Shown here in pieces: positions 20,020-33,693 of a DNA stretch of 34,715 bases. The stretch is from positions 1 to 34,715 of the forward strand of contig CANFSB010000015.1 in assembly GCA_947449495.1 (NCBI GenBank). The letters are read 5' to 3'. Numbering within the stretch: position 1 is the stretch's first letter; each line of letters begins with the position of its first letter. This stretch comes from Pseudomonadota bacterium (GTDB lineage Bacteria > Pseudomonadota > Gammaproteobacteria > Steroidobacterales > Steroidobacteraceae). The position numbers and the translations under genes are program-made. Below the pieces are notes generated by a model. That model was not told the origin of the DNA. It did no database searches and was given only the letters and a program-made list of their open reading frames with translations.

Positions 20020-20448
20020 ATGCTCGTCAGATTGCTTTACGCCAGCCGCGCTATCGAGGCGCTTACTCCGGCTGCCATCGATTCGATCATGTTGCAATGC
20101 CGGCACAACAATCCGGAGCGTGGCATCACCGGCATGCTGTGCTACAGCGATGACATTTTTCTGCAGGTGCTGGAGGGTGGTCGGGACGAAGTCTGCGAGA
20201 CCTACAACGCCATTGTTGGCGACCCGCGCAACGGCCATGTCCGTATTCTCAGTTTTGAGGAGATTCCAGAGCGCCGGTTTGGCAGTTGGACGATGGGCCA
20301 AGTGCACATCTCCAAGGTCAATACGGCCCTGCTGCTCAAATACGCCGAGAAGCCGGTGCTCAATCCGTTTGCCTGTTCGGGTAAAGCATCATTGGCTTTG
20401 CTTGAGGAATTGATTGCCACAGCCTCTGTCATCGGACGCGGCGCCTAA
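20020..20448 (+). CDS. BLUF-domain blue-light photoreceptor, short form
   Basis: This 142-aa protein is a stand-alone BLUF domain that should bind FAD and sense blue light. Key residues are in place: Tyr7 in RLLYASR, Asn31 in NNPERGITGML, Gln49 in FLQVLEGG, and Trp90 with Met92 in SWTMGQV. The Tyr-Gln pair is what the BLUF photocycle needs. About 45 residues follow the core and would form the C-terminal cap helices, as in short BLUF proteins such as PixD or BlrB. No output domain is fused, so signalling must go through a partner protein. It is 7 bases downstream of folE and almost certainly cotranscribed with it. Confidence 0.93.
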   Translation: MLVRLLYASRAIEALTPAAIDSIMLQCRHNNPERGITGMLCYSDDIFLQVLEGGRDEVCETYNAIVGDPRNGHVRILSFEEIPERRFGSWTMGQVHISKVNTALLLKYAEKPVLNPFACSGKASLALLEELIATASVIGRGA

Positions 20449-20561: not shown

Positions 20562-21041
20562 ATGAATAAACTGATCAGCTTCGGCATTGCTGCCGCGCTC
20601 GCCGTGGGCGCTGCCCATGCTGCTGCACCTGCTGGCCCGCCCTCACCAGAGGATGCTGCCAAGAGCCAGATCGAGACCCGTCAGGGCCTCTTCAAGGTCG
20701 TCGCAGCCACTTGGGGTCCGGTTGGCGGCATGATGCGCAACACCGCGCCCTTCGACGCCGCGCAGGTTTCCAAGGCTGCCGGACGTCTGGCTGCGATGGC
20801 CCCAATTGCACCGGATCTGTTCGCGGCCGACACGCGCAAGTTCACGCAGTTCAAAACAGCTGCGCTGGATGGCATCTGGAACAGCCAGGCCGACTTCAAG
20901 GCTAAGGCCGACGATCTGGTCAAGGCTGCTACCGACCTGGGCGCTGTTGCTGCCAAGGGCGACAAGGCCGAGACGTTGAAGGCCGCTGCAGCTGTGGGCA
21001 AGGCCTGCGGCAGCTGCCACGACTCGTATCGCGCGAAGTAA
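20562..21041 (+). CDS. Cytochrome c' (class II c-type cytochrome)
   Basis: The 159-aa precursor has a signal peptide (about residues 1-20, ending AHA) and a single C-terminal haem-attachment motif CGSCH (Cys149, Cys152, His153), followed by DSYRAK. A four-helix body with a C-terminal CxxCH is the cytochrome c' layout; these periplasmic haem proteins bind NO or carry electrons. GGGGAG lies about 8 bases before the ATG. The gene converges on the cytochrome b561 gene and is separated from it by a strong terminator hairpin. A partner relation to that b-type cytochrome is plausible but inferred. Confidence 0.93.
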   Translation: MNKLISFGIAAALAVGAAHAAAPAGPPSPEDAAKSQIETRQGLFKVVAATWGPVGGMMRNTAPFDAAQVSKAAGRLAAMAPIAPDLFAADTRKFTQFKTAALDGIWNSQADFKAKADDLVKAATDLGAVAAKGDKAETLKAAAAVGKACGSCHDSYRAK

Positions 21042-21100: not shown

Positions 21101-21826
21101 TCAGTAGCTGGTATCCACAGGCGGCGGCGCCTGCTTGAGCACCCACCACACCAGTACAGTTACTGCCACGGCCAGAAACAGTGCCAGTGGCAACCGTGAG
21201 CTCTTGATTGCTTCCTCTGCAGGAACGATCTCAGCACTCTTGTGGCCGTGCACCATCGGCGGCACCAGCCGCTGACGCTTCCACACCGTGTAGAACACAA
21301 TCGCTGCCACATGCGCACCGATTAGCCACTGCAGCAGTTCAAAGTTGCTGTGATGTAGCGAACCGGCAGCAGTGGAGAACGCTGTGCTGACAGCCGGGAA
21401 GAACGGTCCGGCCCAGACGATGTCGTCCGACGTGAACAAGCCGCTGCCAGCCTGCACCGCCACCATCGCTAGCAGTACCAGCACCATCAGCGCCCCCATC
21501 GGGTTGTGACCGATGGCGGGCTTGGAGTCGCGCTGCAACACTGTACCGACGTAGGCCATCAGCTTGCGCGGACTTGGCAAAAACTGCGCGAAGCGCGCGT
21601 GCTTGGGACCCACAAAGCCCCACACAATACGAAAGAGCAGCAAACCGATCACGGTGTAACCGAAGCGGAAATGCCACTCCATCCAGGTGACGTCAAACGA
21701 TCCTGTCAACCACTGTAGCCAATCCGCATCGGCGTGGGCTGTCAGGTACAGACCGACTATGGCCAGCAACAGCGACCAATGAAAAACTCGCAGGGGCAGA
21801 TCCCAAACCAAGCGGCGTTCGGACAT
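21101..21826 (-). CDS. Cytochrome b561 family membrane protein (Ni/Fe-hydrogenase b-subunit type)
   Basis: This 241-aa protein has the di-haem b561 architecture that passes electrons between quinone and a periplasmic partner. It starts with LVWDLPLRVFHWSLL, a hallmark of this family including a haem-ligand histidine candidate. Four hydrophobic segments are visible (about residues 12-30, 50-70, 108-128 and 160-182), with further histidines in EWHFRFGY and LHHSNFELLQWLIGAH. An additional C-terminal membrane helix lies near 211-230. It is the last gene of the minus-strand run, 35 bases after the ankyrin gene, so it may provide the membrane electron link for the exported haem protein encoded upstream. 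That partnership is inference. Confidence 0.9.
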   Translation of the reverse strand: MSERRLVWDLPLRVFHWSLLLAIVGLYLTAHADADWLQWLTGSFDVTWMEWHFRFGYTVIGLLLFRIVWGFVGPKHARFAQFLPSPRKLMAYVGTVLQRDSKPAIGHNPMGALMVLVLLAMVAVQAGSGLFTSDDIVWAGPFFPAVSTAFSTAAGSLHHSNFELLQWLIGAHVAAIVFYTVWKRQRLVPPMVHGHKSAEIVPAEEAIKSSRLPLALFLAVAVTVLVWWVLKQAPPPVDTSY

Positions 21827-21861
21827 GAGCGATAAACCTCGACTGACTTAAATAAATTGAC

Positions 21862-23298
21862 TCAGCGTTGCGCGGTGACGGCAGCAGCCTGTAGCTGTTC
21901 GAGTAGCGTGGCCGTGTCTTTGTAAACGCTGACACCCTGCCCGCCCCGGCCCTGACCACCCGCCTTACCCAGCGCATGATCGACAGGCGTGAGCCCTTTA
22001 GCATCCTTGGCCTGCAACGGCGCGTGATTGGCTGCCAAGAACTTCACCACATCGTTGTAGCCCCAGAATGCGGCGCCATGCAGCGCGGTGCGTCCTTGTT
22101 TGTCTTGCAGCGTCAGGTTGCCGCCAGCCGCGAGCATCAGCTGGAGACTGGCGATCATGCCTGCCTGCGTCTTGAGCGAACCGCGCGTATCTATGTTAGT
22201 TGAACCCAAACCCGCGGCGGCCATAACAGGAGTAATACCGGCCACTTGCGGCAAATTGGGATTGGCGCCTGCTGCGAGCAGCAAGCGTGTGGCCTCTACG
22301 TCACCGGCCTTGGCCGCACGCAGCAAGGGTGTGCTGCCGATGGTCAGCAGTGTGTCGGCCCCGCGATCTGCCCCTACGGCGCGATACGGTGGCAGCAACT
22401 TGAGTTGCAGGTTGGGATTGGCACCGGCCTTAAGCAACAGATCGATCATCTGCAGGCTGCTGATGCGATCCAGTGAAGGCATATCGGGGCGGCCGCCACG
22501 GGGTACCGTGTTGAGATCCACGGCGCACCACAGTGCGGTGCGACCCCACCAGTCCCACAGATTGGGGTTGGCACCCTTGGACAGCAACCAGGCACCAATA
22601 TCAAAGTTGAAGTTATTGACTGCAACGATCAAGGCGGTCACACCTTCCGGATCGGTGTAGTCGATTTGTGCGCCTTTGCCTACCAGCGCCTTCACGCATT
22701 CCAAACAGCCTTGACGCGCGGCAAACAGTAGCGCTGTAAACCCACCTGCCGGGCGATATTGGGCGCGTGGCTCGCCGCTGACCTGACGTTGGTTGTCGTT
22801 GACGAGAGTGCGTGCGTTGACATCGGCGCCGTGCGAGATGAGCTCTCGCACCATCGCGGGCTGTCCTTGTGCCGCAGCCCACATCAAGGCCGTTTGGCCA
22901 CGGATCTTTTCGGCGGCATTAACCTTTGCGCCGGCACGGATGAGCACGCGCACTGCAGCGACATTGCTGGTACGCGCCAGTACCATCAATGAAGTCTGGC
23001 CCGAGGCGTTTACGGCATTCACATCGGCACCGGCTTTGATCAATGCCGTCAATACAACCGTATTGCCGATGACCGCGGCTTCTGCCAATGGCGTTGCGCC
23101 GTAATCATTTATTGCGTTGGGGTTGGCCCCTTCTTTAAGCAGTCTTTGCACCAGTACTGCATCGTCTTGATGCACTGCCCAATGCAAGGCAGTAGAGCCA
23201 TCCTGTGTAAGCTCGCCAGCGTCTGGCGCTTGCGCTGCAGTGGCTACAACCACCGGAGCAAGGGCCAGCACCAGCCACACTACCAGTCGCGTGGTCAT
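21862..23298 (-). CDS. Secreted ankyrin-repeat protein
   Basis: This 478-aa protein has a signal peptide (about residues 1-22, WLVLALAPVVVATAAQA) followed by roughly nine ankyrin repeats through to residue 450. Clear units include GSTALHWAVHQDD, YGATPLAEAAVIGN, GQTSLMVLARTSN, GQTALMWAAAQGQ, GFTALLFAARQG and GRTALHGAAFWGYND, each with the terminal GADVNA or GANPN turn. Ankyrin repeats bind proteins, and the signal peptide places the scaffold in the periplasm. It starts 2 bases after the DUF1552 stop. The combination with DUF1552 and DUF1592-type genes recurs in several bacterial phyla by my recollection. Binding partner and process are unknown. Confidence 0.93.
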   Translation of the reverse strand: MTTRLVVWLVLALAPVVVATAAQAPDAGELTQDGSTALHWAVHQDDAVLVQRLLKEGANPNAINDYGATPLAEAAVIGNTVVLTALIKAGADVNAVNASGQTSLMVLARTSNVAAVRVLIRAGAKVNAAEKIRGQTALMWAAAQGQPAMVRELISHGADVNARTLVNDNQRQVSGEPRAQYRPAGGFTALLFAARQGCLECVKALVGKGAQIDYTDPEGVTALIVAVNNFNFDIGAWLLSKGANPNLWDWWGRTALWCAVDLNTVPRGGRPDMPSLDRISSLQMIDLLLKAGANPNLQLKLLPPYRAVGADRGADTLLTIGSTPLLRAAKAGDVEATRLLLAAGANPNLPQVAGITPVMAAAGLGSTNIDTRGSLKTQAGMIASLQLMLAAGGNLTLQDKQGRTALHGAAFWGYNDVVKFLAANHAPLQAKDAKGLTPVDHALGKAGGQGRGGQGVSVYKDTATLLEQLQAAAVTAQR

Positions 23299-23300
23299 AC

Positions 23301-24623
23301 TCAGATCTCTGACAGCAGACCGGTGCTGTCACCGACCACAGTTTGCGGCACTCCTGCCTTGTCCAGCAGTGTCAGCAGTACGTTGGACAGCGGGGTGTGG
23401 TCTGGGTAGCGCACATGACGACCGCTCTTCATGCGCCCCGCTCCACCGCCAACGATGCTGGTGGGCAGTGGGAACTGGTTGTGCGCATCGCTGTTGCTCA
23501 TGTTGCTGCCATAGACAATCATCGAATGATCCAGCAGCGAGCCTTCACCGTCCGGCATCTCGGCGAGTTTCTTCAGGAAGCGTGCAAACTGTTCGGTATG
23601 CCAGCGCTGAATGCGCACCAACTTGTCTTTCTTGGCAGGGTCGTTCTGGTGATGTGACAGCGGATGGAATGCATCGGCGATGCCGATGTGGTTATAGGTC
23701 ATGTTGCTGACCTCTGCGGCCATCATGAACGTCTGGATGCGCGTCAAATCAGCCTGCCAGGCCAGTGCCATCATGTCGAACATCAGGCCCATCTGATCCG
23801 GGAAGGCATCCGGGATGCCCACCGGCATGTCGGGCAATGCCAGCTTGGACAGGTCCTGCTTTTCAGCCTTTTGCACGCGCCGCTCAATCTCGCGGATGCT
23901 CTCCAGATAGTCATCCAATGCTGCGCGGTCCGGACCACCCAGGCTGCGGCGCAGATCGTTGGCTTCGCTGACGACCATGTCGAGAATGCTGGCGTATTGC
24001 TGCGCCTGCAGCTTGCGCTCGGCAGCAGTATTGCCGCGACCGAACAGTCGCTGAAACAGACTGCGCGGGTTGTATTCCATGGGCAGCGGCGTGGTCGGTG
24101 TACGAAACGACACCGTGCCTGAATAGCTGCAGCCATAAGAGCGATCACAGGCGCCACCACCACCGGGGGCTTCGGTGGCCACCTCCAAAGAAGGCAGCGG
24201 TGTTTCCTGGCCGATATGCATAGCGGCCATCTGATCGACAGTGATACCGCCATAGGCCTCGTGCGTCTCGCGCGGATGCACACAGGACAGCCAGGTTCCC
24301 GGAACGATGGCGTGTACTGCGGCGCTTTGCGCTGGCCGGTTGCCCAAGCCACTGACCACTGTCAGTTGTTGGCGAAAGGGTTTGAGCGGTTCGAGAATGG
24401 GCGACAACTCATAGTTCTCGCCTTCGGTGGTTGGCGTCCACTTGTCCATGATCGCGCCATGGGGGAAGTACACAAAACCCATGCGTAGCTTTGCAGCTGC
24501 GGCAGTCTTTGCCAGCGCTGTGTGCGCGGGGATCATCGCATCGAGTAGCGGCAGAGATAGCGCGATACCTGCGCCGCGCAGGAAGGTGCGGCGTGGCAGG
24601 AATTTGCGTGTGAGATAGGTCAT
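23301..24623 (-). CDS. DUF1552 protein with Tat signal
   Basis: This 440-aa protein starts with a twin-arginine signal, PRRTFLRGAGIALSLPLLDA, so it is folded before export. The body fits DUF1552 (alkaline-phosphatase-like fold by family assignment): GFVYFPHGAIMDKWTP after the signal, SGLGNRPAQ, HAIVPGTWLS, and later DHSMIVYGSNMSNSDAHNQ and GGGAGRMKSGRHV. The enzymatic activity of the family is not established. It overlaps the upstream haem protein gene by 4 bases and is followed by the ankyrin gene after 2 bases, so stoichiometric expression is likely. Confidence 0.9.
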   Translation of the reverse strand: MTYLTRKFLPRRTFLRGAGIALSLPLLDAMIPAHTALAKTAAAAKLRMGFVYFPHGAIMDKWTPTTEGENYELSPILEPLKPFRQQLTVVSGLGNRPAQSAAVHAIVPGTWLSCVHPRETHEAYGGITVDQMAAMHIGQETPLPSLEVATEAPGGGGACDRSYGCSYSGTVSFRTPTTPLPMEYNPRSLFQRLFGRGNTAAERKLQAQQYASILDMVVSEANDLRRSLGGPDRAALDDYLESIREIERRVQKAEKQDLSKLALPDMPVGIPDAFPDQMGLMFDMMALAWQADLTRIQTFMMAAEVSNMTYNHIGIADAFHPLSHHQNDPAKKDKLVRIQRWHTEQFARFLKKLAEMPDGEGSLLDHSMIVYGSNMSNSDAHNQFPLPTSIVGGGAGRMKSGRHVRYPDHTPLSNVLLTLLDKAGVPQTVVGDSTGLLSEI

Positions 24624-27022
24624 GGCGTGCTCCGGGCGAGTTCGGGGCTGCGGGAGAAACGAAATTGCTCACTGAGTACCACACCGGTGAGCAACGAGGA
24701 GAAGCGATAATCGTGAGTGGCCGCCTCGCGCACGATGGCGCGAATGCGTGGCCGGTCGGTGTATTCCACTGCACGACCCAAGGCGAACACCATCAATTTT
24801 TCGGTCAGCGTCTGTGCGAACTGATCGGGCTTGCCTGTTAGGTAGCGGCGAAGATCGTTCACATCTGAGAAGCGCGTGCCATCTACAAAACTCGCAGATG
24901 CATCCACTGGCGTGAGTATTTCGCGATCACGTTCGCGCCAGGCGCCCACTGCATCAAAGTTTTCCAGGGCAAAACCCAGCGGATCCATCACGGCGTGGCA
25001 GCCATTGCAGGACGGCTGTGCCCGGTGCAATTCGAGGCGTTGTCTTACAGTGCTGGGAGGCGCTCCGGGGGTGTTCTCTTTGAGTGCCTCCACGCCGGGC
25101 GGTGGTGCCGAGGGTGGTGTGCCCAGCACGCGCTCGAGTATCCAGTTGCCACGCAGCACCGGCGCCGTACGGTTGCCATAGCTTGTGGACATCAGCATGG
25201 CGCCCTTGCCCAACAAGCCCCAGCGTGCCGAGTCTGCCAGTTGCACACGTCGAAACTGATCACCGCGTACATTGGGTACGCCGTAGTGCAAGGCCAAGCG
25301 CTCGTTTAGGAAGCTATAGTCGGCACTGAGCAAGTCGGTAATGCGACCGTCATTGCGCAAAATACTGTCTGCAAACAGTTCTATCTCGCGCCGAAACCCA
25401 CGCCGCAATTCTTCATCGAAGTTGGGGAACAATGCGCCGTCAGGATCAACGTTGTCCAAGTTCTCGACGTTGAGCCACTGATTGGCGAAGTTACTGATCA
25501 GTGATTTGGAGCGCTCGTCGGCCAACATACGCCGCACTTGCGCTTGCAGGGTTGCCGGGTCTTTGAGCTTGCCCGCTGCAGCCAGTTGCAGCAGTTGCTC
25601 ATCCGGACCGCGACTCCACAGAAAGAACGACAGACGTGAGGCCAAAGCCAGATCGTCCAGCGCATAGGATTGACCTGCGACCACGCCTGCCGGAGGCGTC
25701 TCAATGCGGTAGAGAAACTTCGGGCTTGAAAGGATGGCCATCAGTGCGGTTTGGACGCCGGCTTCAAAGCCGCCGTTGCGCTGACCTTCATCAAAAAAAC
25801 GCAGTGGCGCTGCCAAATCGGCATCGGTTACTGGGCGGCGAAACGCGTCGCGGGCGATGCGCGCGATGATTTGTTGCGCGCAGGGTCGCTCTTGATTGGC
25901 GCTGGCGGGATAGCACGAGAACACTTTGCGCCGACTGGGCGTTTCGCCCACACCGGTGGGATTGAACGGGCCGACGATGTCCATGCCGGCTACCCGCGCA
26001 TAGCTGTCGCTGCCACCACCGGGGACAAAGGGTGCCAATAGCGCCTCGGATTCGGCAAAGCTGGTAGCAACAAAAGTGGCCATGATGCGACGCGGCCCAG
26101 CTTTGACCGGCACGCGGATCTTTTGGAAGCGCGCGTTGATCTTGCCTTGGGCCGGAGCCTGTTGTTGATCGACCGCGCGCGAATCAGTCTCGCCGCCGAC
26201 CTTTTGTTCAAACACACGGCGGCCGTCGATGAGCAGCACTACTGTCTGCTCGGCCATGCCCAGTCCATAGCCACCGCCGACCGGCACACGCAGGTTAAAT
26301 TCGTATTCACCATCGGCGGGGAACCAGTGCTCTATGACCATGCCGCCACGCGTGCCCAGCGGCATGCCCTCTTGATGGAAGGCCTGGCGCGAGGCCGGTG
26401 CGCGATAGGTTTGACTGGCGGAGCGCGGCTTGGCTTCACCAATGGCCATGCTGCTGACCGTGCGTGCGGCTTGCACATACTGATCTAGGAAAGTTGGCGA
26501 TACCTTGAGTACAGCGGCCACATTGTCAAAGCCTTCGCTGCGCGTGTCCTTGGGCAACAACAGCTCTGGGTTTACGCGCAGGCCCAACAGCTCCTCTACC
26601 GCGCGGGCGTACTCATTGCGGTTAAGGCGATGCAGACCCACCCGGCCCGGATCCGGTGCGCGTGCCGCATTGGCGTCGAGTTCGCCCTCCATCCAGCGTA
26701 CGAACTGATCTATTTGCGGCTGTGGCGGTTGCTTCTCACCTGCCGGCGGCATCAAGCGCCCGCGCAGCTTGGTGACGGCCTCCTCCCAGACCTTGGCGTC
26801 GCTACCGATCCCATCGCTATTCATGGTGTCGAAGGCTACGCCGCCGGCCCAGTCTTCAGCGTTATGGCATTTGCTGCAGTATTGGTTGAGCCACTGCAGG
26901 TTGGCTGCGTCGGCGCTACCCGAAGCATGGCCTGAAGCAGTACCTAACGGTGCAGCGAGCACGAACGAGGGGAGCATCAACGCTATCGCGGTGATGCTGG
27001 AAATTAGCCGTGTGTGGATCAT
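24620..27022 (-). CDS. Exported di-haem protein with DUF1587/1595/1592/1588/1585 modules
   Basis: This 800-aa protein has the architecture first seen in planctomycetes. A signal peptide ends near residue 25. A cytochrome-like part carries YCSKCHN (Cys49, Cys52, His53). Then come DUF1587 (HRLNRNEYARAVEELL), a beta-rich carbohydrate-binding-like stretch at roughly 185-330, DUF1595 (IARDAFRRPVTDADLA), DUF1592 (LASRLSFFLWSRGPDE and FANQWLNVENLDNV), DUF1588 with a second haem motif PSCNGCHAVMDPLGFALE (Cys672, Cys675, His676), and DUF1585 (LTEKLMVFALGRAVEY). The ATG at 27022 gives the signal peptide; the longer frame is rejected. It is coupled to DUF1552 by an ATGA overlap. Function is unknown; two covalent haems point to periplasmic electron transfer. 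Confidence 0.92.
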   Translation of the reverse strand: MIHTRLISSITAIALMLPSFVLAAPLGTASGHASGSADAANLQWLNQYCSKCHNAEDWAGGVAFDTMNSDGIGSDAKVWEEAVTKLRGRLMPPAGEKQPPQPQIDQFVRWMEGELDANAARAPDPGRVGLHRLNRNEYARAVEELLGLRVNPELLLPKDTRSEGFDNVAAVLKVSPTFLDQYVQAARTVSSMAIGEAKPRSASQTYRAPASRQAFHQEGMPLGTRGGMVIEHWFPADGEYEFNLRVPVGGGYGLGMAEQTVVLLIDGRRVFEQKVGGETDSRAVDQQQAPAQGKINARFQKIRVPVKAGPRRIMATFVATSFAESEALLAPFVPGGGSDSYARVAGMDIVGPFNPTGVGETPSRRKVFSCYPASANQERPCAQQIIARIARDAFRRPVTDADLAAPLRFFDEGQRNGGFEAGVQTALMAILSSPKFLYRIETPPAGVVAGQSYALDDLALASRLSFFLWSRGPDEQLLQLAAAGKLKDPATLQAQVRRMLADERSKSLISNFANQWLNVENLDNVDPDGALFPNFDEELRRGFRREIELFADSILRNDGRITDLLSADYSFLNERLALHYGVPNVRGDQFRRVQLADSARWGLLGKGAMLMSTSYGNRTAPVLRGNWILERVLGTPPSAPPPGVEALKENTPGAPPSTVRQRLELHRAQPSCNGCHAVMDPLGFALENFDAVGAWRERDREILTPVDASASFVDGTRFSDVNDLRRYLTGKPDQFAQTLTEKLMVFALGRAVEYTDRPRIRAIVREAATHDYRFSSLLTGVVLSEQFRFSRSPELARSTP

Positions 27023-27036
27023 CGCCCTGCTCCGCT

Positions 27037-27966
27037 TCAGACAACGCCGCGCTGTTCGCGCACGTGACCCCAAAGCCCTTTGTAGGTATTCATAAGGAAC
27101 AACCTAGGATCGCCCCACTGGCTGTCATATTCGGCAGTTGGTTTGGCATCGATGATATCCAGATCGCTCATGCCTTTGCGCATCAGTTGCCAGATGCGCT
27201 CTTTGAGTAGATCGAGCATGTCGGTCTGTGCTTGCAAGTGGCTGCGATTCACCACATCACCACTACCTGTGACGATGAGCGTGGCTTCGTCGCACAGCGG
27301 CAGCAACTGCTTGCCTGCATCGACCAGTCCGCCGATCCAGCCGCCTACTGTCCAATCCGGCATCGGCCAGGTTCCGCGCGTTACGGTATCGCCGGTAATC
27401 AACACATTGCTGGCTGGCAGATGTACATACAAATCGCCGTCCGAATGGGCTTGACCCAGCCAACCGTAGCGGATCTGGTGCGATCCGAGCCGCAGCTCAC
27501 CGTCGGTATAGAAGGTGGTGGTGGGCCAGGCCTGCCGCGCAAATGCCGGCACGACGCGCTGCTCCCAAGGCACGGCCACAGGCCGTTGCATCCACAGCCG
27601 AGTGTTTTCGTGCGCGATGATGCCGGCGCCAGCGCGCGCCAGCACTTCATTGCCGCCGGTGTGATCTGCATGACAGTGGGTGTTGATCAGCGTTTTAACC
27701 CGACGCTTGCCCGGTTGCACCAGCGTCAGCAGGTCGCGCGCGCGCGCGCTGGAGCCGCTGTCTACCAGCACGGCACTGTCACCGTCTTCGATGCTCACCA
27801 CCGCGCCACCGGCGCCAGTAATCAACCGCAGACCTGGAGCCAGTGGGTGCGCCTGCAACGGCTGGGAAGGCCCTGCAGCCGCGCTCGCGCCACGTGCAAG
27901 GCTGGCCAGGGCAGCGCTGGCCAGTGCTGCACCCATGAACTGCCGCCGATCGACCCTGCCTGACAT
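27037..27966 (-). CDS. Tat-exported metallo-beta-lactamase-fold hydrolase
   Basis: The 309-aa protein begins MSGRVDRRQFMGAALASAAL, a twin-arginine signal, and then shows the MBL zinc motif THCHADHTGG (HxHxDH), a later metal histidine in GQAHSDGD and the bridging aspartate in LITGDTV. It looks like the stand-alone exported MBL proteins often found with quinoprotein or cytochrome systems, but the substrate is unknown. The ATG at 27966 has GGGGA 8 bases upstream; a TTG one codon earlier is less likely. It is the first gene of the minus-strand run, 14 bases before the di-haem gene. The 186-base divergent gap to the ThDP gene contains a 12-bp palindrome AGCGGCGCCGCT near 28075 and no promoter I can place firmly. 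Confidence 0.9.
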   Translation of the reverse strand: MSGRVDRRQFMGAALASAALASLARGASAAAGPSQPLQAHPLAPGLRLITGAGGAVVSIEDGDSAVLVDSGSSARARDLLTLVQPGKRRVKTLINTHCHADHTGGNEVLARAGAGIIAHENTRLWMQRPVAVPWEQRVVPAFARQAWPTTTFYTDGELRLGSHQIRYGWLGQAHSDGDLYVHLPASNVLITGDTVTRGTWPMPDWTVGGWIGGLVDAGKQLLPLCDEATLIVTGSGDVVNRSHLQAQTDMLDLLKERIWQLMRKGMSDLDIIDAKPTAEYDSQWGDPRLFLMNTYKGLWGHVREQRGVV

Positions 27967-28152: not shown

Positions 28153-29799
28153 GTGAAAACCGATGCGGCGATGGCCGAAATCCTCAAGCGCGAGCGCGTG
28201 CAATACCTGTTTGGCTATCCGCGCAACGCGCTGCTCGATGCCGCCGCAAAGATCGACATCCGCACGATTATCGTCCGTCAGGAACGCACCGGCCTGCACA
28301 TGGCCGATGCGGTGTCCCGGTTGACACGTGGCGAGAGCATGGGTGTGTTCTGCATGCAGCACGGCCCCGGCGCCGAGAACGCCTATGGCGGCGTGGCACA
28401 GGCCTATGCCGATTCGATACCCATTTTGGTGGTGCCGCAGGGCTACGCGCGTAAGAACATGTTCCTGCCCTACAACTACAACTCGACGCTGCAGATGCGC
28501 GGCATCTCCAAGCACAACGAGCCGGTGCTCGACGGCGCCGAGTCACCCAATATTTTGCGCCGCGCGTTCACGCAATTGCGCAACGGCCGTCCGCAGCCGG
28601 TGGTGGTCGAAGTGCCCCTCGATGCTTTCAACGATGAAGTGCCCGAGCCGCTCAATTACACGCCGGTCTACAAGACCCGTTCCGCCGCAGACCCCGAGGC
28701 AGTGGTGCGCGCGGCAGCCCTGCTGGTGGCCGCCAAGCGTCCGGTCATCCATGCCGGTCAAGGTGTGCACTGGGCCAACGCCTATGCCGAGCTGCAAGAA
28801 CTGGCCGAGTTGCTGGGCGCACCAGTCAGCACGTCACTGCCGGGCAAGAGCTCCTTTAACGAGCGCCATCCGCTGTCGCTGGGTTCCGGTGGTCACGGTA
28901 TCAACCGTCAGATCCATCACTTCATCAGCTCTGCCGACGTCATCTTCGGCATCGGTTGCTCGTTCACCGAGAGCAGCTTTGCTATCGCCATGCCCAAGGG
29001 CCCCACTTATATCCACTCGACCAACGATCCGGTGGATCTCAACAAGACAGTGACTTCGGCACTGGGTCTGGTCGGCGATGCACAGCTGGTGTTGCGCGCC
29101 GTGATCGCCGAGATCCGCAAGACGGTCACTGCCAACCGCGATGCCACCGCCGTGGCCGCCGAGATCAAGCGCGTGGAAGCGGAGTGGATGCAGAACTGGC
29201 TGCCCAAGCTGCAGAGCGATTCAGCGCCCCTGAGCCCCTATCGCGTGTTGTGGGACCTGCAGAAGACCGTCGACATCGACAACACCATCATCACCCACGA
29301 CGCCGGCAGCCCGCGCGATCAGCTGGTGCCGTTCTGGAAGTCGACGACGCCCTTGTCGTACATCGGTTGGGGCAAGACCACGCAGTTGGGCTTCGGTCTG
29401 CCGCTGGCCATGGGCGCCAAGCTAGTGCACCCGGACAAGCTGTGCATCAACGTGTGGGGTGATGCGGCCATCGGCTTCACTGGCATGGATTTCGAGACGG
29501 CGGTGCGTGAGCGTCTGCCGATCCTGTCGATCCTGCTGAACAACTTCTGCATGGCCATCGAACTGCCGATCATGCCCAACGCCACTGAGCGGTTCCGCGC
29601 CACCGATATCTCGGGTGACTATGCCGCCATGGCACGGGCCTTCGGTGGTTATGGCGAACGCGTGACACGCCCTGAAGACATCATTCCTGCAATCAAGCGT
29701 GCTATCGAGCAAACCCAAAAGGGTGTGCCGGCGCTGCTGGAGTTCATCACCGAGCAGGAGACCGAAGTCTCCCGCCCGTGGGTGCCGGGCGGCAAATAA
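28153..29799 (+). CDS. Thiamine diphosphate-dependent enzyme of the acetolactate synthase superfamily, substrate unknown
   Basis: This 548-aa protein has all three domains of the POX/ALS family. The N-terminal PYR domain carries the cofactor-activating Glu44 in VRQERTGLHMADA and QHGPGAENAYGG. A central domain follows (KRPVIHAGQGVHW), then the C-terminal PP domain with the ThDP and magnesium motif from GDAAIGFTG (Gly436) to LLNN (Asn463-464). It lacks features that would let me call acetolactate synthase, oxalyl-CoA decarboxylase or glyoxylate carboligase. It starts with GTG, and GGAG is 9 bases upstream. It converges on a benzoylformate decarboxylase-like gene. A 2-oxoacid decarboxylase or carboligase role is the limit of what can be claimed. 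Confidence 0.85.
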   Translation: MKTDAAMAEILKRERVQYLFGYPRNALLDAAAKIDIRTIIVRQERTGLHMADAVSRLTRGESMGVFCMQHGPGAENAYGGVAQAYADSIPILVVPQGYARKNMFLPYNYNSTLQMRGISKHNEPVLDGAESPNILRRAFTQLRNGRPQPVVVEVPLDAFNDEVPEPLNYTPVYKTRSAADPEAVVRAAALLVAAKRPVIHAGQGVHWANAYAELQELAELLGAPVSTSLPGKSSFNERHPLSLGSGGHGINRQIHHFISSADVIFGIGCSFTESSFAIAMPKGPTYIHSTNDPVDLNKTVTSALGLVGDAQLVLRAVIAEIRKTVTANRDATAVAAEIKRVEAEWMQNWLPKLQSDSAPLSPYRVLWDLQKTVDIDNTIITHDAGSPRDQLVPFWKSTTPLSYIGWGKTTQLGFGLPLAMGAKLVHPDKLCINVWGDAAIGFTGMDFETAVRERLPILSILLNNFCMAIELPIMPNATERFRATDISGDYAAMARAFGGYGERVTRPEDIIPAIKRAIEQTQKGVPALLEFITEQETEVSRPWVPGGK

Positions 29800-29811
29800 G
29801 CCGGTTCGCGA

Positions 29812-31389
29812 CTAGCCCTGGCTGACCATCACCTCGACCAGCGTCGGTCGAGGTGATGCGATGGCCTCACGCAACGTGTTGGCCAATTCTGCGGCGTGTT
29901 CCACCCGCAGACCGTCGCAGCCCTGTGCGCGTGCGATGGCCGCAAAATCCACGCCACCCAAATCTGTTCCCACTGCCTGCTTGATGCCAAAGCGCTTGGC
30001 AAAGTGATGCAGTGCTTCATAGCGACGGTTGTTGACGATGATGAAGGTGATGGGCAGGCCCAGTTGCGCGGCGCTCCACAGCGCCTGGATGGAATACATG
30101 GCAGAGCCATCGCCAATCAGCGCAATCACCTTGCGACCCGGATTAGCCAATGCCACACCCACCGCTGCCGGCAGACCATGCCCCAAGCCACCGCTGCTGC
30201 AGGTGTAGAAGGTTTCGCTTTGTATGATGGGCAGGTAGGCCTGCATCGGCCCGCGACTGCTGGGTGCTTCTTCGACAATGATGCTGTCTGCGCTGCGCAC
30301 GTCGGCCAGCGTCTGCATCAGGAAGCTGTCGGGAAACGGATCGGTGGGCAGCAGCCGCGCGGGTGCGGCGCGACCGTGCTGTGCTGCAGGTATGGCTGGA
30401 CCCGGGCGATCGAGTAGATCCCGAAGGGCTGGAGCCAAGCTGGTATAGATCGCAGTGCCGGTGATGGCGCAAGCAGCCCAGTCCGGATCATCGGTCAATT
30501 GCCAGACCTCAAGGCCTGGCGGCGTGTAGTCGCCCACGCCTTCAGCGTGATAGGTGAACACCGGCGCGCCGATGGCCACGCACACGTCATGCGGCTGCAA
30601 ACGCGCGCAGATCTCTTCGCGGAAGGCCGGCAGAAAGCCGGCAAACAAGGGGTGATTCTCTGGAAAGCCGCAGCGGCCGATCAGCGGACTGGCCCATACC
30701 AGTGCCCCATGACGCTCTGCAAGCTGCAGCAGCATGGCCCAACCTCCCTCACGATCCACGCCACCGCCGATCACAAACACCGGACGCTGGCTGTTGCGTA
30801 AGACCACTGCCAAAGCATCGATTTGTGAAGCCTCGGCACGCATCGATGTGGATACCTTGCGTGCTGGTACAGGTGCAGTCTGCACATCCCAGTCATCGAC
30901 CGGAATGGATACGAAGGTCGGGCCACAGGGCGGCAGACAGGCGATGTAGTAAGCACGCGCTATAGCCGCGGGCACGTCCTCAGCGCGCGCCGGCTCGCAA
31001 GCCCACTTCACGTAGGGCCGTGGCAACTCGGTGGCTTGAGTAGAGAACAGGAACGGTTCCATCTGCAGCAATGAGCGCGACTGCTGACCCGCGGTGATGA
31101 CCATGGGCGTGCGGTTGCGATACGCAGTAAAGATGTTGCCCATCGCATGGCCTACACCGGCAGCCGAATGCAGATTGACGAATGAGGCGTTGTGAGTTGC
31201 TTGGGCGTATCCATCGGCCATGCCTACTACAGTTGATTCCTGCAACCCAAGCACATAGCTGAAGTCTTCGGGGAAATCACGAAACATGGGCAGCTCGGTT
31301 GAGCCCGGATTGCCGAAGACTTTGTTGATGCCCAGTTCGCGCAGCAACGTAAAGGTGGCTTCGCGAACGCTAACTGTTTTGGATGACAT
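29812..31389 (-). CDS. mdlC: Benzoylformate decarboxylase
   Basis: MdlC decarboxylates benzoylformate to benzaldehyde in mandelate degradation. The 525-aa protein matches the length of the Pseudomonas putida enzyme and keeps its catalytic set: Ser30 in FGNPGSTELP, Glu51 in GLQES, His74 in NLHSAAGVGHAMG and His281 in GAPVFTYH. The ThDP motif GDGSAMYSIQALWSAAQ to VNN is near residue 430. The ATG at 31389 is chosen because GGGA lies about 7 bases upstream and the PYR domain begins at once; 68 further open codons upstream are not protein-like. No mandelate racemase or dehydrogenase is in the window, so the physiological 2-oxoacid could differ. A perfect inverted repeat lies in its last codons. 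Confidence 0.85.
   Translation of the reverse strand: MSSKTVSVREATFTLLRELGINKVFGNPGSTELPMFRDFPEDFSYVLGLQESTVVGMADGYAQATHNASFVNLHSAAGVGHAMGNIFTAYRNRTPMVITAGQQSRSLLQMEPFLFSTQATELPRPYVKWACEPARAEDVPAAIARAYYIACLPPCGPTFVSIPVDDWDVQTAPVPARKVSTSMRAEASQIDALAVVLRNSQRPVFVIGGGVDREGGWAMLLQLAERHGALVWASPLIGRCGFPENHPLFAGFLPAFREEICARLQPHDVCVAIGAPVFTYHAEGVGDYTPPGLEVWQLTDDPDWAACAITGTAIYTSLAPALRDLLDRPGPAIPAAQHGRAAPARLLPTDPFPDSFLMQTLADVRSADSIIVEEAPSSRGPMQAYLPIIQSETFYTCSSGGLGHGLPAAVGVALANPGRKVIALIGDGSAMYSIQALWSAAQLGLPITFIIVNNRRYEALHHFAKRFGIKQAVGTDLGGVDFAAIARAQGCDGLRVEHAAELANTLREAIASPRPTLVEVMVSQG
29827..29858. repeat. Perfect 13-bp inverted repeat at the convergent junction of two ThDP genes
   Basis: CATCACCTCGACC (29827-29839) and GGTCGAGGTGATG (29846-29858) are exact reverse complements around a 6-base loop. 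The repeat is within the final codons of mdlC and begins 27 bases after the stop of the plus-strand ThDP gene. No T tract follows on either strand. It may be a terminator-like stem serving the plus-strand transcript or an mRNA 3'-end stabiliser. Confidence 0.8.
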
Positions 31390-31527
31390 GGCAAATCCCT
31401 GCTGATGTTGGTGCCAATCATACTCACCTGCATCGGCCTCTCGCATTACCTCAATTTGCCGGGGGATGTGATAGCCTCTTCGAGCCTTTAAAGCCTCCCC
31501 GTAGATGCACGCCGAGTACCGAAAACA

Positions 31528-33693
31528 GTGAATGCCCCTCTCGCTGCCGGACGCCTCCAGGTCGCCCACGCCCTCGCCCAGTTTGTCGCTCAAGAAGCCC
31601 TTCCCGGCACTGGGCTGACAGCAGAAACATTCTGGGCTGGCGTGGAAGCCATACTGCTCGTCTTTACGCCGCGCAACACCGCACTGTTGGCAGAGCGTGA
31701 CCGCTTGCAGTCACGGATCGATGACTGGTGGCGCGAGCATGGGCAAGAGCCGTTTGATGTTGTGGGCCACACCACATTCCTGCGTAGCATTGGTTATCTG
31801 GTGGATCCACCCGCACCGTTTACTATCGACATCAGTCATGTGGATGACGAGATTGCTTTGGTGGCGGGTGCGCAGCTTGTAGTGCCGGTCAGCAACGCGC
31901 GCTATGCGCTCAACGCTGCCAATGCACGTTGGGTCAGCTTGTACGACGCACTCTATGGCACCGATGCATTAGAGCCGCAGGTAGCTGGTGCGCGCGGCTA
32001 CGATGCGACGCGCGGCGCACTGGTGATTGCCCATGTGCGTACCCTGCTTGATCAAATCGCACCGTTGGACAGCGGCAGTCATGCCAGCGCAGTGCGCTAC
32101 TGTGTGGTTGGCGGCGTACTACAGATCACGCTAGGGGATGGCAGCAGCACAGGCCTTGCGCAGACTCAGCAACTGGCCGGCTGGAGCGGTGATGCTGCGG
32201 CGCCGGCCTCTGTGCTGCTCAAACACAATGGCCTGCATCTTGATGTGATCTTTGATCGCAATAGCGTAATCGGTGCCACAGATGTGGCCGGTATTTCTGA
32301 TGTCGTTATCGAGGCGGCGCTGACCACCATTCAGGACTGTGAAGACTCGGTTGCCGCAGTGGATGCCGACGATAAAGTCGGTGTTTATCGCAATTGGCTG
32401 GGGCTCATGAATGGCTCCCTAGAAGCGCAGTTTGCCAAGGGCAGCGGCACGGTCACGCGCCGCTTGGCACAGGATCGCCAATACAGCGCACCGGACGGCG
32501 GCAGCCTCACCTTGCCGGGTCGCAGCTTGCTGCTGGTGCGTAATGTCGGTCACCACATGCAAAGCGACGCTGTGTTGCTGGATGGTCAGCCGGTCTATGA
32601 AACCGCGCTCGATGCCTGCATCACCTTGATGATCGCGCTGCACGACCTGCGCGGTGGTCGTCTCAATTCTCGCGCCGGCAGTATCTATGTGGTCAAACCC
32701 AAGATGCATGGTCCGGCCGAAGTGGCGTTGGCTGTCGAATTATTTGACCGCGTAGAAGACCTGCTGGGTCTGCCGCGCAACACCGTCAAAATGGGTGTGA
32801 TGGACGAAGAGCGCCGCACCAGTGCCAACCTCGCAGCGTGCATCCATGCGGCACGCCAGCGCATCGTGTTCATCAATACCGGCTTTCTCGATCGCACCGG
32901 TGATGAGATTCACACCTGCATGGAAGCGGGGCCGGTACTGCGTAAAGACGAAGTCAAATTGCAGCCGTGGATTGCCGACTACGAGAAGCGCAACGTACAG
33001 ATCGCGCTTGCTGCGGGGTTTCGTGGCCGTGCGCAGATAGGCAAGGGCATGTGGGCCATTCCCGATCGCATGGCCGAGATGCTGCGTGTCAAAGTCGGTC
33101 ATCCCAAGGCAGGTGCCAATACAGCCTGGGTGCCCTCACCTACTGCTGCGGCATTGCATGCGCTGCATTATCACAGCGTGCATGTCGATGCTGTTCAGGC
33201 ACTGCTGCAAGCGCAGAGTGTGCCGGGTACGGATGCATTGCTGACACCGCCGCTGGCCAAGCGCCTGCCCGATGCGACCGACATCCAGCAAGAGTTGGAC
33301 AACAACCTGCAGGGTATCTTGGGCTACGTAGTGCGCTGGATCGATCAGGGCGTGGGCTGCTCCAAGGTGCCCGACATTCACGACGTGGGCTTGATGGAAG
33401 ATCGCGCCACGCTGCGCATCTCCAGCCAACATGTTGCCAATTGGTTGCGCCATGGCGTGGTCAGCGAGGCGCAGGTTAGCGCCACGCTGGTGCGGATGGC
33501 TGGCGTGGTTGATCGGCAAAATGCCGCCGATCCGTTGTACACGCCGATGAGCACAGGCCTCGACGCCAGCATTGCTTTTCAGGCGGCCCGCGAACTTGTG
33601 TTCCAAGGTCGCGCTCAGCCCAACGGCTATACCGAACACATCCTTCACCGCCGCCGGCGCGAGCACAAGCTGCGTCACGGCACCGCACACTGA
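31528..33693 (+). CDS. glcB: Malate synthase G
   Basis: GlcB condenses glyoxylate with acetyl-CoA to malate. The 721-aa length is that of the monomeric G isoform rather than the ~530-aa A form. Typical segments are [55 protein letters not shown] with an active-site arginine/glutamate neighbourhood, [15 protein letters not shown], and the C-terminal [20 protein letters not shown]. It starts with GTG and the ribosome binding site is poor; no better start is near. The 138-base gap to mdlC is the divergent promoter region. A glcG-like gene follows after 17 bases, forming a small glyoxylate operon. Confidence 0.97.

Follow-up and report, generated by a model that had tools for sequence, protein, structure and literature searches.

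A contig of 34,715 bases (CANFSB010000015.1), here called the window and meant at its full length, carries a compact row of genes for exported and membrane-bound proteins. The question raised by this locus is whether these genes form one unit and, if so, what that unit does. The proteins are named here as follows: CYT, an 800-residue PSCyt/PSD cytochrome; DUF1552; ANK, an ankyrin-repeat protein; MBL, an MBL-fold protein; a cytochrome b561-type membrane protein (b561); and a cytochrome c'. Judged from gene order and sequence conservation, they make up a conserved exported module with CYT, DUF1552 and ANK as its core and MBL as the usual partner, joined in the window copy by b561 and cytochrome c'. 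Eight diverged cassettes in one genome, together with conserved linkage elsewhere, probably represent one undescribed working unit, and a redox role of this module is likely. The best explanation, to which about an even chance is given, is a periplasmic redox module of which the window holds one of eight paralogous copies, diversified by substrate and coupled to quinone in the window copy.

The features concerned are listed below; open reading frame (ORF) coordinates include stop codons.

27037..27966, minus strand: MBL-fold protein, 309 amino acids, twin-arginine-type N-terminus, complete HCHADH motif (ORF, Pfam, alignment)
24620..27022, minus strand: CYT, exported PSCyt/PSD (DUF1587-1595-1592-1588-1585) protein, 800 amino acids, two CxxCH motifs (ORF, Pfam, alignment, model)
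26864..26878, minus strand: first CxxCH of CYT, residues 49-53, invariant in 62 of 62 (alignment)
24995..25009, minus strand: second CxxCH of CYT, residues 672-676, invariant in 62 of 62 (alignment)
23301..24623, minus strand: DUF1552 (HXXSHH) protein, 440 amino acids, twin-arginine-type N-terminus, predicted alkaline-phosphatase-superfamily fold (ORF, Pfam, model)
23649..23666, minus strand: HxxSHH motif of DUF1552, residues 320-325, three histidines invariant in 60 of 60 (alignment)
21862..23298, minus strand: ANK, exported ankyrin-repeat protein, 478 amino acids (ORF, Pfam)
22696..22707, minus strand: CxxC of ANK, residues 198-201 (motif search)
21101..21826, minus strand: cytochrome b561-type membrane protein, 241 amino acids, accessory of the window copy (ORF, Pfam, alignment)
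20562..21041, plus strand: cytochrome c' (PF01322), 159 amino acids, convergent with b561, accessory of the window copy (ORF, Pfam)

The initial annotation had described five minus-strand genes separated by 14, -4, 2, and 35 bases, and these gaps are exact to the base. It had named all five families, and each name is borne out by a Pfam match: Lactamase_B for MBL (5.4e-21), PSD4/DUF1592 for CYT (PF07631, 3.5e-45), HXXSHH for DUF1552 (PF07586, 2.3e-94, full-length and above the cut-off, with the HxxSHH motif present), Ank for ANK (4e-59), and prokaryotic cytochrome b561 for the membrane protein (PF01292, 8.8e-27, 94.5 bits against a cut-off of 30.1). The proposed two twin-arginine and two Sec-type signals also agree with the N-termini as read by eye. 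MBL (RRQFMG) and DUF1552 (RRTFLRG) are of the twin-arginine type, CYT and ANK are Sec-like, and the RR of DUF1552 is kept in all 60 aligned proteins. The cytochrome c' gene, separated by 59 bases from the converging b561 gene, had been overlooked. Between 20500 and 28300, neither promoter-like patterns (1 against 2.2 in shuffled sequence) nor terminator-like patterns (4 against 6.7) are in excess, and both counts are uninformative on transcription.

The window makes up one of the 159 contigs of a 2.58-Mb genome, which is put at 100% complete and contains eight DUF1592 genes paired side by side with eight DUF1552 genes. The resulting cassettes are named window, C1, C89, C21, C7a, C7b, C112-C71, and C37-C117; in the last two, the contig ends share 149 identical bases (C112 with C71, and likewise C37 with C117). 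In seven cassettes ANK adjoins DUF1552, namely the window, C1, C89, C21, C7a, C7b, and C112-C71, in the last of which the end of contig C112 cuts ANK. C37-C117 has the order DUF1552, MBL, ANK. ANK is therefore found in all eight cassettes, two of them counted across overlapping contig ends. Of the nine ankyrin genes in the genome (those of C71 and C112 taken together), eight belong to cassettes and only that of C62 is solitary. MBL genes accompany seven of the eight cassettes. The window and C1 have theirs upstream, C89 has a divergent one upstream, and C112-C71 and C7b have one behind ANK; another, the sole MBL of C7a, lies between C7a and C7b on the opposite strand. In the remaining cassette, C21, the contig ends inside CYT and the upstream side lies beyond it; a pyrroloquinoline quinone (PQQ) dehydrogenase with a cytochrome domain comes after ANK in this cassette.

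Within this genome the cassette genes diverge in step. Across the eight cassettes, between-cassette distances correlate with r 0.94 for CYT and DUF1552 (0 of 999 permutations as high), 0.89 for DUF1552 and ANK (1 of 999), and 0.88 for CYT and ANK (1 of 999), and across five cassettes with r 0.78 for DUF1552 and MBL (22 of 999). This comparison includes some fragments or trimmed proteins, namely CYT of C21, ANK of C112 (taken from C71), and the start of CYT in C7b.

Conserved linkage in relatives had been set as a test of the operon, and it was found without any refutation. The cross-genome set consists of the best 80 of 587 confirmed loci from a search with the eight DUF1552 paralogs, in records mostly labelled Proteobacteria/Gammaproteobacteria and Acidobacteria/Terriglobia/Bryobacterales, with few Alphaproteobacteria. 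Loci with too little room were left out: three for CYT (at most 500 bases upstream), six for ANK (at most 400 downstream), and 22 for MBL (at most 3,600 upstream). CYT stands immediately upstream of DUF1552 in 74 of 77 loci. On the downstream side ANK is present in 68 of 74, as the next gene in 56 and behind an MBL gene in the other 12; MBL is near DUF1552 in 43 of 58. Four of the six loci without a downstream ANK (L077, L093, L100, L103) hold an ANK ORF elsewhere. Among the 12 loci where MBL separates DUF1552 from ANK, 11 were compared with the paralogs of the window's genome, and all 11 are closest to C37, as is L083, which has no MBL. In 43 cassettes of other genomes, gene-pair distances correlate with r 0.65-0.81 (0 of 999 each), to which species kinship contributes. 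The loci were chosen for their likeness to the cassettes of the window's genome, so that the counts apply to this branch of DUF1552 rather than to the family as a whole. On a Planctomyces plasmid, the DUF1592-DUF1552 pair occurs with no ANK among the listed genes. Seven of eight other genomes of the same genus have 7-10 DUF1552 matches and one has a single match. In an even sample of the class, matches occur in 6 of 276 genomes, the window's genome counted, so the module is patchy in the class.

Some carriers have details of their own. L060 and L080 are cassettes in a metagenome-assembled genome titled Klebsiella pneumoniae (MoH-23oct19-118), a doubtful label. In the alphaproteobacterium Novosphingobium sp. 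KACC 22771, a 1.3-Mb plasmid carries CYT-DUF1552-ANK (L136, 6422-11620), a region for which the distributed gene table shows no genes.

CYT belongs to the PSCyt3/PSD planctomycete-type proteins, with PSD4, PSCyt3 (PF07627), PSD2, PSD3, and PSD5 above the cut-off and a further match to PSCyt1. The initial annotation had pointed out two CxxCH motifs in this protein; in an alignment of the window protein with 61 complete proteins from the 80 loci, both are present and, like Met91, invariant in 62 of 62. The motifs are of the c type and covalent haem is predicted, with Met91 as a candidate haem ligand. The AlphaFold2 model is confident (predicted local distance difference test score, pLDDT, 89.7). 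Residues 200-355, approximately, are modelled as a beta-sandwich closest to the carbohydrate-binding modules (CBMs) CBM36, CBM35, and CBM6 (Z 9.0, root-mean-square deviation (rmsd) 2.7, 103 residues, a moderate score), and CYT is thus predicted to have a CBM-like domain. Foldseek gave no match for the CYT model at 0.001, and no fold match is listed outside the beta-sandwich, which does not make the fold new.

DUF1552 was aligned as the window protein with 59 complete proteins from the 80 loci. H104, H320, H324, H325, and H381 are invariant in all 60, H55 is present in 56 and H403 in 55. The model (pLDDT 84.9) resembles sulfatases, nucleotide pyrophosphatases, LtaS, and alkaline phosphatases, with a best Foldseek match of 7.1e-07 at a TM-score of about 0.40 and a structural alignment with Z up to 17.1 and rmsd 3.7 over 265 of 440 residues. 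An alkaline-phosphatase-superfamily fold is accordingly predicted for DUF1552. It differs from solved members of that superfamily in its invariant histidine set and its lack of a sequence match. No sulfatase nucleophile motif was recognised by eye. The active site would differ from that of sulfatases. DUF1501 was considered as a detectable relative; DUF1552 set against the DUF1501 protein of this genome yielded no match, a weak test given the single sequence.

The initial annotation had cast the ankyrin protein as a scaffold. It occurs in all eight own cassettes and in 68 of 74 other loci, and is a regular member of the set. A CxxC motif is found in 54 of 62 complete relatives, which are kin by descent and not independent. 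It lies in the setting [ATV]-R-x-[GNRD]-C-x-x-C in 53 of the 54, and in the stricter AR-x-GCxxC in 43. As these proteins are kin, the motif shows retention in most branches and not independent origin. Among 24 control ankyrin ORFs, read stop to stop from 30 loci of 25 related genomes without DUF1552, two contain any CxxC; some were cut at locus ends, so that the motif may be missed. Retention of the motif hints at more than a scaffold role for ANK, though two of the eight own copies lack it. The solitary gene on C62 (L133, 9539-11056, minus strand) encodes an ANK of the cassette type with CxxC, without a cytochrome-DUF1552 cassette, and an ORF of 253 amino acids upstream of it is Rossmann-type by eye.

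The window MBL retains a complete HCHADH zinc motif. Class B beta-lactamase was rejected as its identity, as its scores fall short of the curated NCBIfam cut-offs (55.7 bits for subclass B1, where 200 are required, and 55.5 for the core model, where 100 are required). Its best NCBIfam match is the quinoprotein relay system zinc metallohydrolase 2 (TIGR04559), and PQQ dehydrogenases near some cassettes add to the likeness with that system. At 72.2 bits, however, the score is far under the curated cut-off of 280, and that for TIGR04558 likewise falls below its cut-off (53.2 against 300).

The initial annotation had further proposed that the complex is wired to the quinone pool through b561. This fits the window copy and some relatives with cytochrome c', but not the module at large. 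The b561 gene occurs in 5 of the 80 loci (L025, L026, L027, L031, L038), and none was found near the other seven cassettes of the genome in the stretches read, some of which reach contig ends. As a core member, b561 is rejected on these counts. Five histidines are invariant in 7 of 7 b561 sequences. In four of these five loci cytochrome c' stands beside b561, L027 being the exception; the two genes converge in L025, L026, and L031, as they do in the window, and are co-directional in L038. This recurrence marks the pair as a recurring accessory and not as core. Plasmid pMSHV of Sphingobium herbicidovorans MH carries DUF1592, DUF1552, cytochrome c', and b561 on one strand. These four families are common to it and the window, whereas its DUF1592 protein is shorter with one CxxCH, and no ANK or MBL match lies within the 19 kb read. 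It is a doubtful, though not negligible, alternative that b561 and cytochrome c' form an electron-transfer pair of their own, next to the cassette but outside its system. Their rarity among loci and absence from the other own cassettes as read would suit this, as would the 35-base gap, the widest of the four, and the position of cytochrome c' on the other strand. Yet b561 recurs in five other loci, four with adjoining cytochrome c', and the distant Sphingobium plasmid holds all four genes co-directionally. Upstream of the short DUF1592 gene on two Sphingobium plasmids, related hypothetical proteins are encoded (L135, 11090-12310; L137, 5986-7331, here split over two ORFs); they are possibly a further partner. 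The available main text of a paper on tomato-saponin Sphingobium contains neither 'DUF' nor 'cytochrome' (PMC10653915).

Neighbouring genes give hints about the substrate. PQQ dehydrogenase genes lie near three of the eight own cassettes (C21, C71, C117) against about 0.6 expected (p about 0.02), a rough expectation for which the gene number was set at 2,400, the share of the genome near cassettes at 3.9%, and the base rate of PQQ proteins at 1.2%. Two of the genome's seven carotenoid-oxygenase-family genes are near own cassettes, together with cytochrome P450, alcohol dehydrogenase, thiamine-diphosphate enzyme, and major facilitator superfamily genes. For the other loci, 268 candidate ORFs were reduced to 199 by a codon-position GC filter and 198 were scanned (93 and 105); PQQ was the commonest family in these neighbour proteins (11 of 93 and 5 of 105). 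These genes point to the oxidative use of small organic molecules, without naming the substrate. Since PQQ dehydrogenases stand near cassettes more often than expected, electron flow as substrate oxidation is slightly favoured. The 2.58-Mb genome as such has a dense set of about 16 PQQ-dehydrogenase-type genes.

In the proposed mechanism, DUF1552 would be a metalloprotein rich in invariant histidines and exported in folded form by the twin-arginine route. DUF1552 and CYT may act jointly on a dissolved organic substrate, with CYT handing on the electrons, and MBL may process the substrate or the product. ANK would dock on DUF1552 and CYT, and its CxxC, where present, may serve assembly, protection, or electron transfer. 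In the window copy, b561 and cytochrome c' would shuttle electrons between CYT and the quinone pool. Differences in substrate would set the eight copies apart. A bolder version sees a new enzyme system, in which an alkaline-phosphatase-fold metalloprotein performs redox chemistry, is fed or drained by the di-haem cytochrome, has the ANK CxxC as a thiol-redox or metal-transfer site in most copies, and has been multiplied like a substrate-specific toolkit; this is considered unlikely.

Several observations weigh against the periplasmic redox module. Neither predicted fold is confirmed by a solved structure; sequence comparisons of CYT and of DUF1552 with such structures, singly and as profiles, found nothing credible. 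CYT is absent beside DUF1552 in three of the 77 loci (L088, L092, L094), cytochrome c' and b561 stand in place of ANK in L038, and L052 has MBL only. The CxxC is lacking in eight of the 62 ANK relatives and in two of the eight own cassettes (C7a and C112-C71, with six retaining it), as well as in the Novosphingobium protein, and is thus not essential to every copy. Many relatives have a degenerate MBL zinc motif; each of its first two histidines is present in 27 of 32 aligned proteins, and its final position holds Q in 14 of them and H in 11. The PQQ family is absent near most cassettes, and its p of 0.02 depends on rough assumptions. Most copies lack b561, which makes the quinone link a feature of some copies and not of all. 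Of the periplasmic oxidoreductase or envelope-modifying complex proposed in the initial annotation, the analysis supports an exported unit whose genes are conserved together and which carries two c-type haem motifs, but not b561 as a general part. In L088, MBL, DUF1552, and ANK follow in order, with no CYT match between MBL and DUF1552.

The cassette could instead be a hydrolase system, in which DUF1552 is catalytically active in the manner of a sulfatase or phosphodiesterase, the CBM-like domain of CYT targets a glycan, and the haems are secondary. Sulfatases and phosphodiesterases are indeed the best fold matches of DUF1552, CYT has the CBM36/35/6-like domain, and PSCyt genes of Verrucomicrobia lie near sulfatase genes, some with CBMs, in the available part of PMC5615132. 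However, the invariance of both CYT haem motifs indicates that the haems are important, DUF1552 has histidines as its invariant residues with no sulfatase nucleophile motif seen by eye, and the 25 commonest families listed for each neighbour set include no sulfatase. This reading is improbable. A comparably low probability is given to a unit for haem-protein care or oxidative stress, in which ANK, like AnkB of catalase operons, helps CYT to obtain or keep haem or shields it, and the cassette detoxifies peroxides or similar compounds. The tie of ANK to a haem protein in 68 of 74 loci is in keeping with this, and exported ankyrin proteins are reported as needed by catalases in the part of PMC3091734 that was available. 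No catalase is among the ten proteins scanned around the window cassette, the other cassettes not having been searched specifically, and eight diverged copies with differing neighbours suit substrate diversity better than stress defence. In addition, haem c is attached covalently by its own dedicated machinery. A chance neighbourhood of unrelated exported proteins has next to no probability. Spacing alone is merely suggestive and nothing else was found in its favour, while linkage in all eight own cassettes and in 68 of 74 loci rules it out, and the genes diverge in parallel.

The periplasmic redox module has several known counterparts. The PSCyt/PSD systems of Planctomycetes and Verrucomicrobia resemble it in having PSCyt1, PSD3, PSD5, PSD4, PSCyt3, and PSD2 in a CYT beside DUF1552, with many copies per genome. 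For freshwater Verrucomicrobia, many copies of PSCyt genes are described next to families whose function is unknown; some carry CBMs, and the function of the PSCyt genes is likewise given as unknown (PMC5615132, available in part). ANK and MBL are regular members here, whereas no such partner is named in the available text of that paper. Cbp2D of Cellvibrio japonicus, as far as the accessible part of PMC8981238 describes it, is a DUF1587-bearing protein whose cytochrome domain X183 can reduce lytic polysaccharide monooxygenases (LPMOs); like CYT, it is exported and combines DUF1587 with a c-type haem domain and a CBM. It differs in partners and domain order, and an AA10 LPMO (PF03067) is rejected as a partner with no match in the window's genome, fungal-type and other LPMO families not having been searched. 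The katB-ankB pairs also tie an exported ankyrin protein, needed by the catalase, to a haem protein (PMC7567364 and PMC3091734, both in part). Here the partner is a c-type di-haem protein plus DUF1552 and not a catalase, and ANK usually has CxxC.

In the open-licence literature, no paper was found with both DUF1592 and DUF1552, nor any description of the ankyrin link or of this module; DUF1592 is named in tables only in the available parts of PMC7789669 and PMC6004670. Since the PSCyt-DUF1552 pairing is known and the partners are undescribed in the literature searched, the module is taken to be a variant of a known system. Newly described here are the DUF1552 fold prediction, the CBM-like domain of CYT, and the CxxC of ANK. 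Planctomycetes and Verrucomicrobia have large numbers of PSCyt/PSD cytochromes with DUF1552-type neighbours, and the accessible text of PMC5615132 gives their function as unknown. The regular ANK and MBL partners, the predicted DUF1552 fold, and the possible quinone-side link make the question of function testable. Apparent carriers in culture collections are Novosphingobium sp. KACC 22771 for CYT-DUF1552-ANK and Sphingobium herbicidovorans MH for the b561 version. If the module does oxidise dissolved organic matter, it would represent an unrecognised step of carbon turnover in lakes and soils, the source of many of these genomes.

Beside the window cassette, two thiamine-diphosphate enzyme genes, PRK06154-like and benzoylformate-decarboxylase-like, face each other (28153-31593), followed by a malate synthase G gene (31528-33693). 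On the other side, a BLUF blue-light sensor gene (20020-20448, plus strand) lies directly downstream of a GTP cyclohydrolase I gene.

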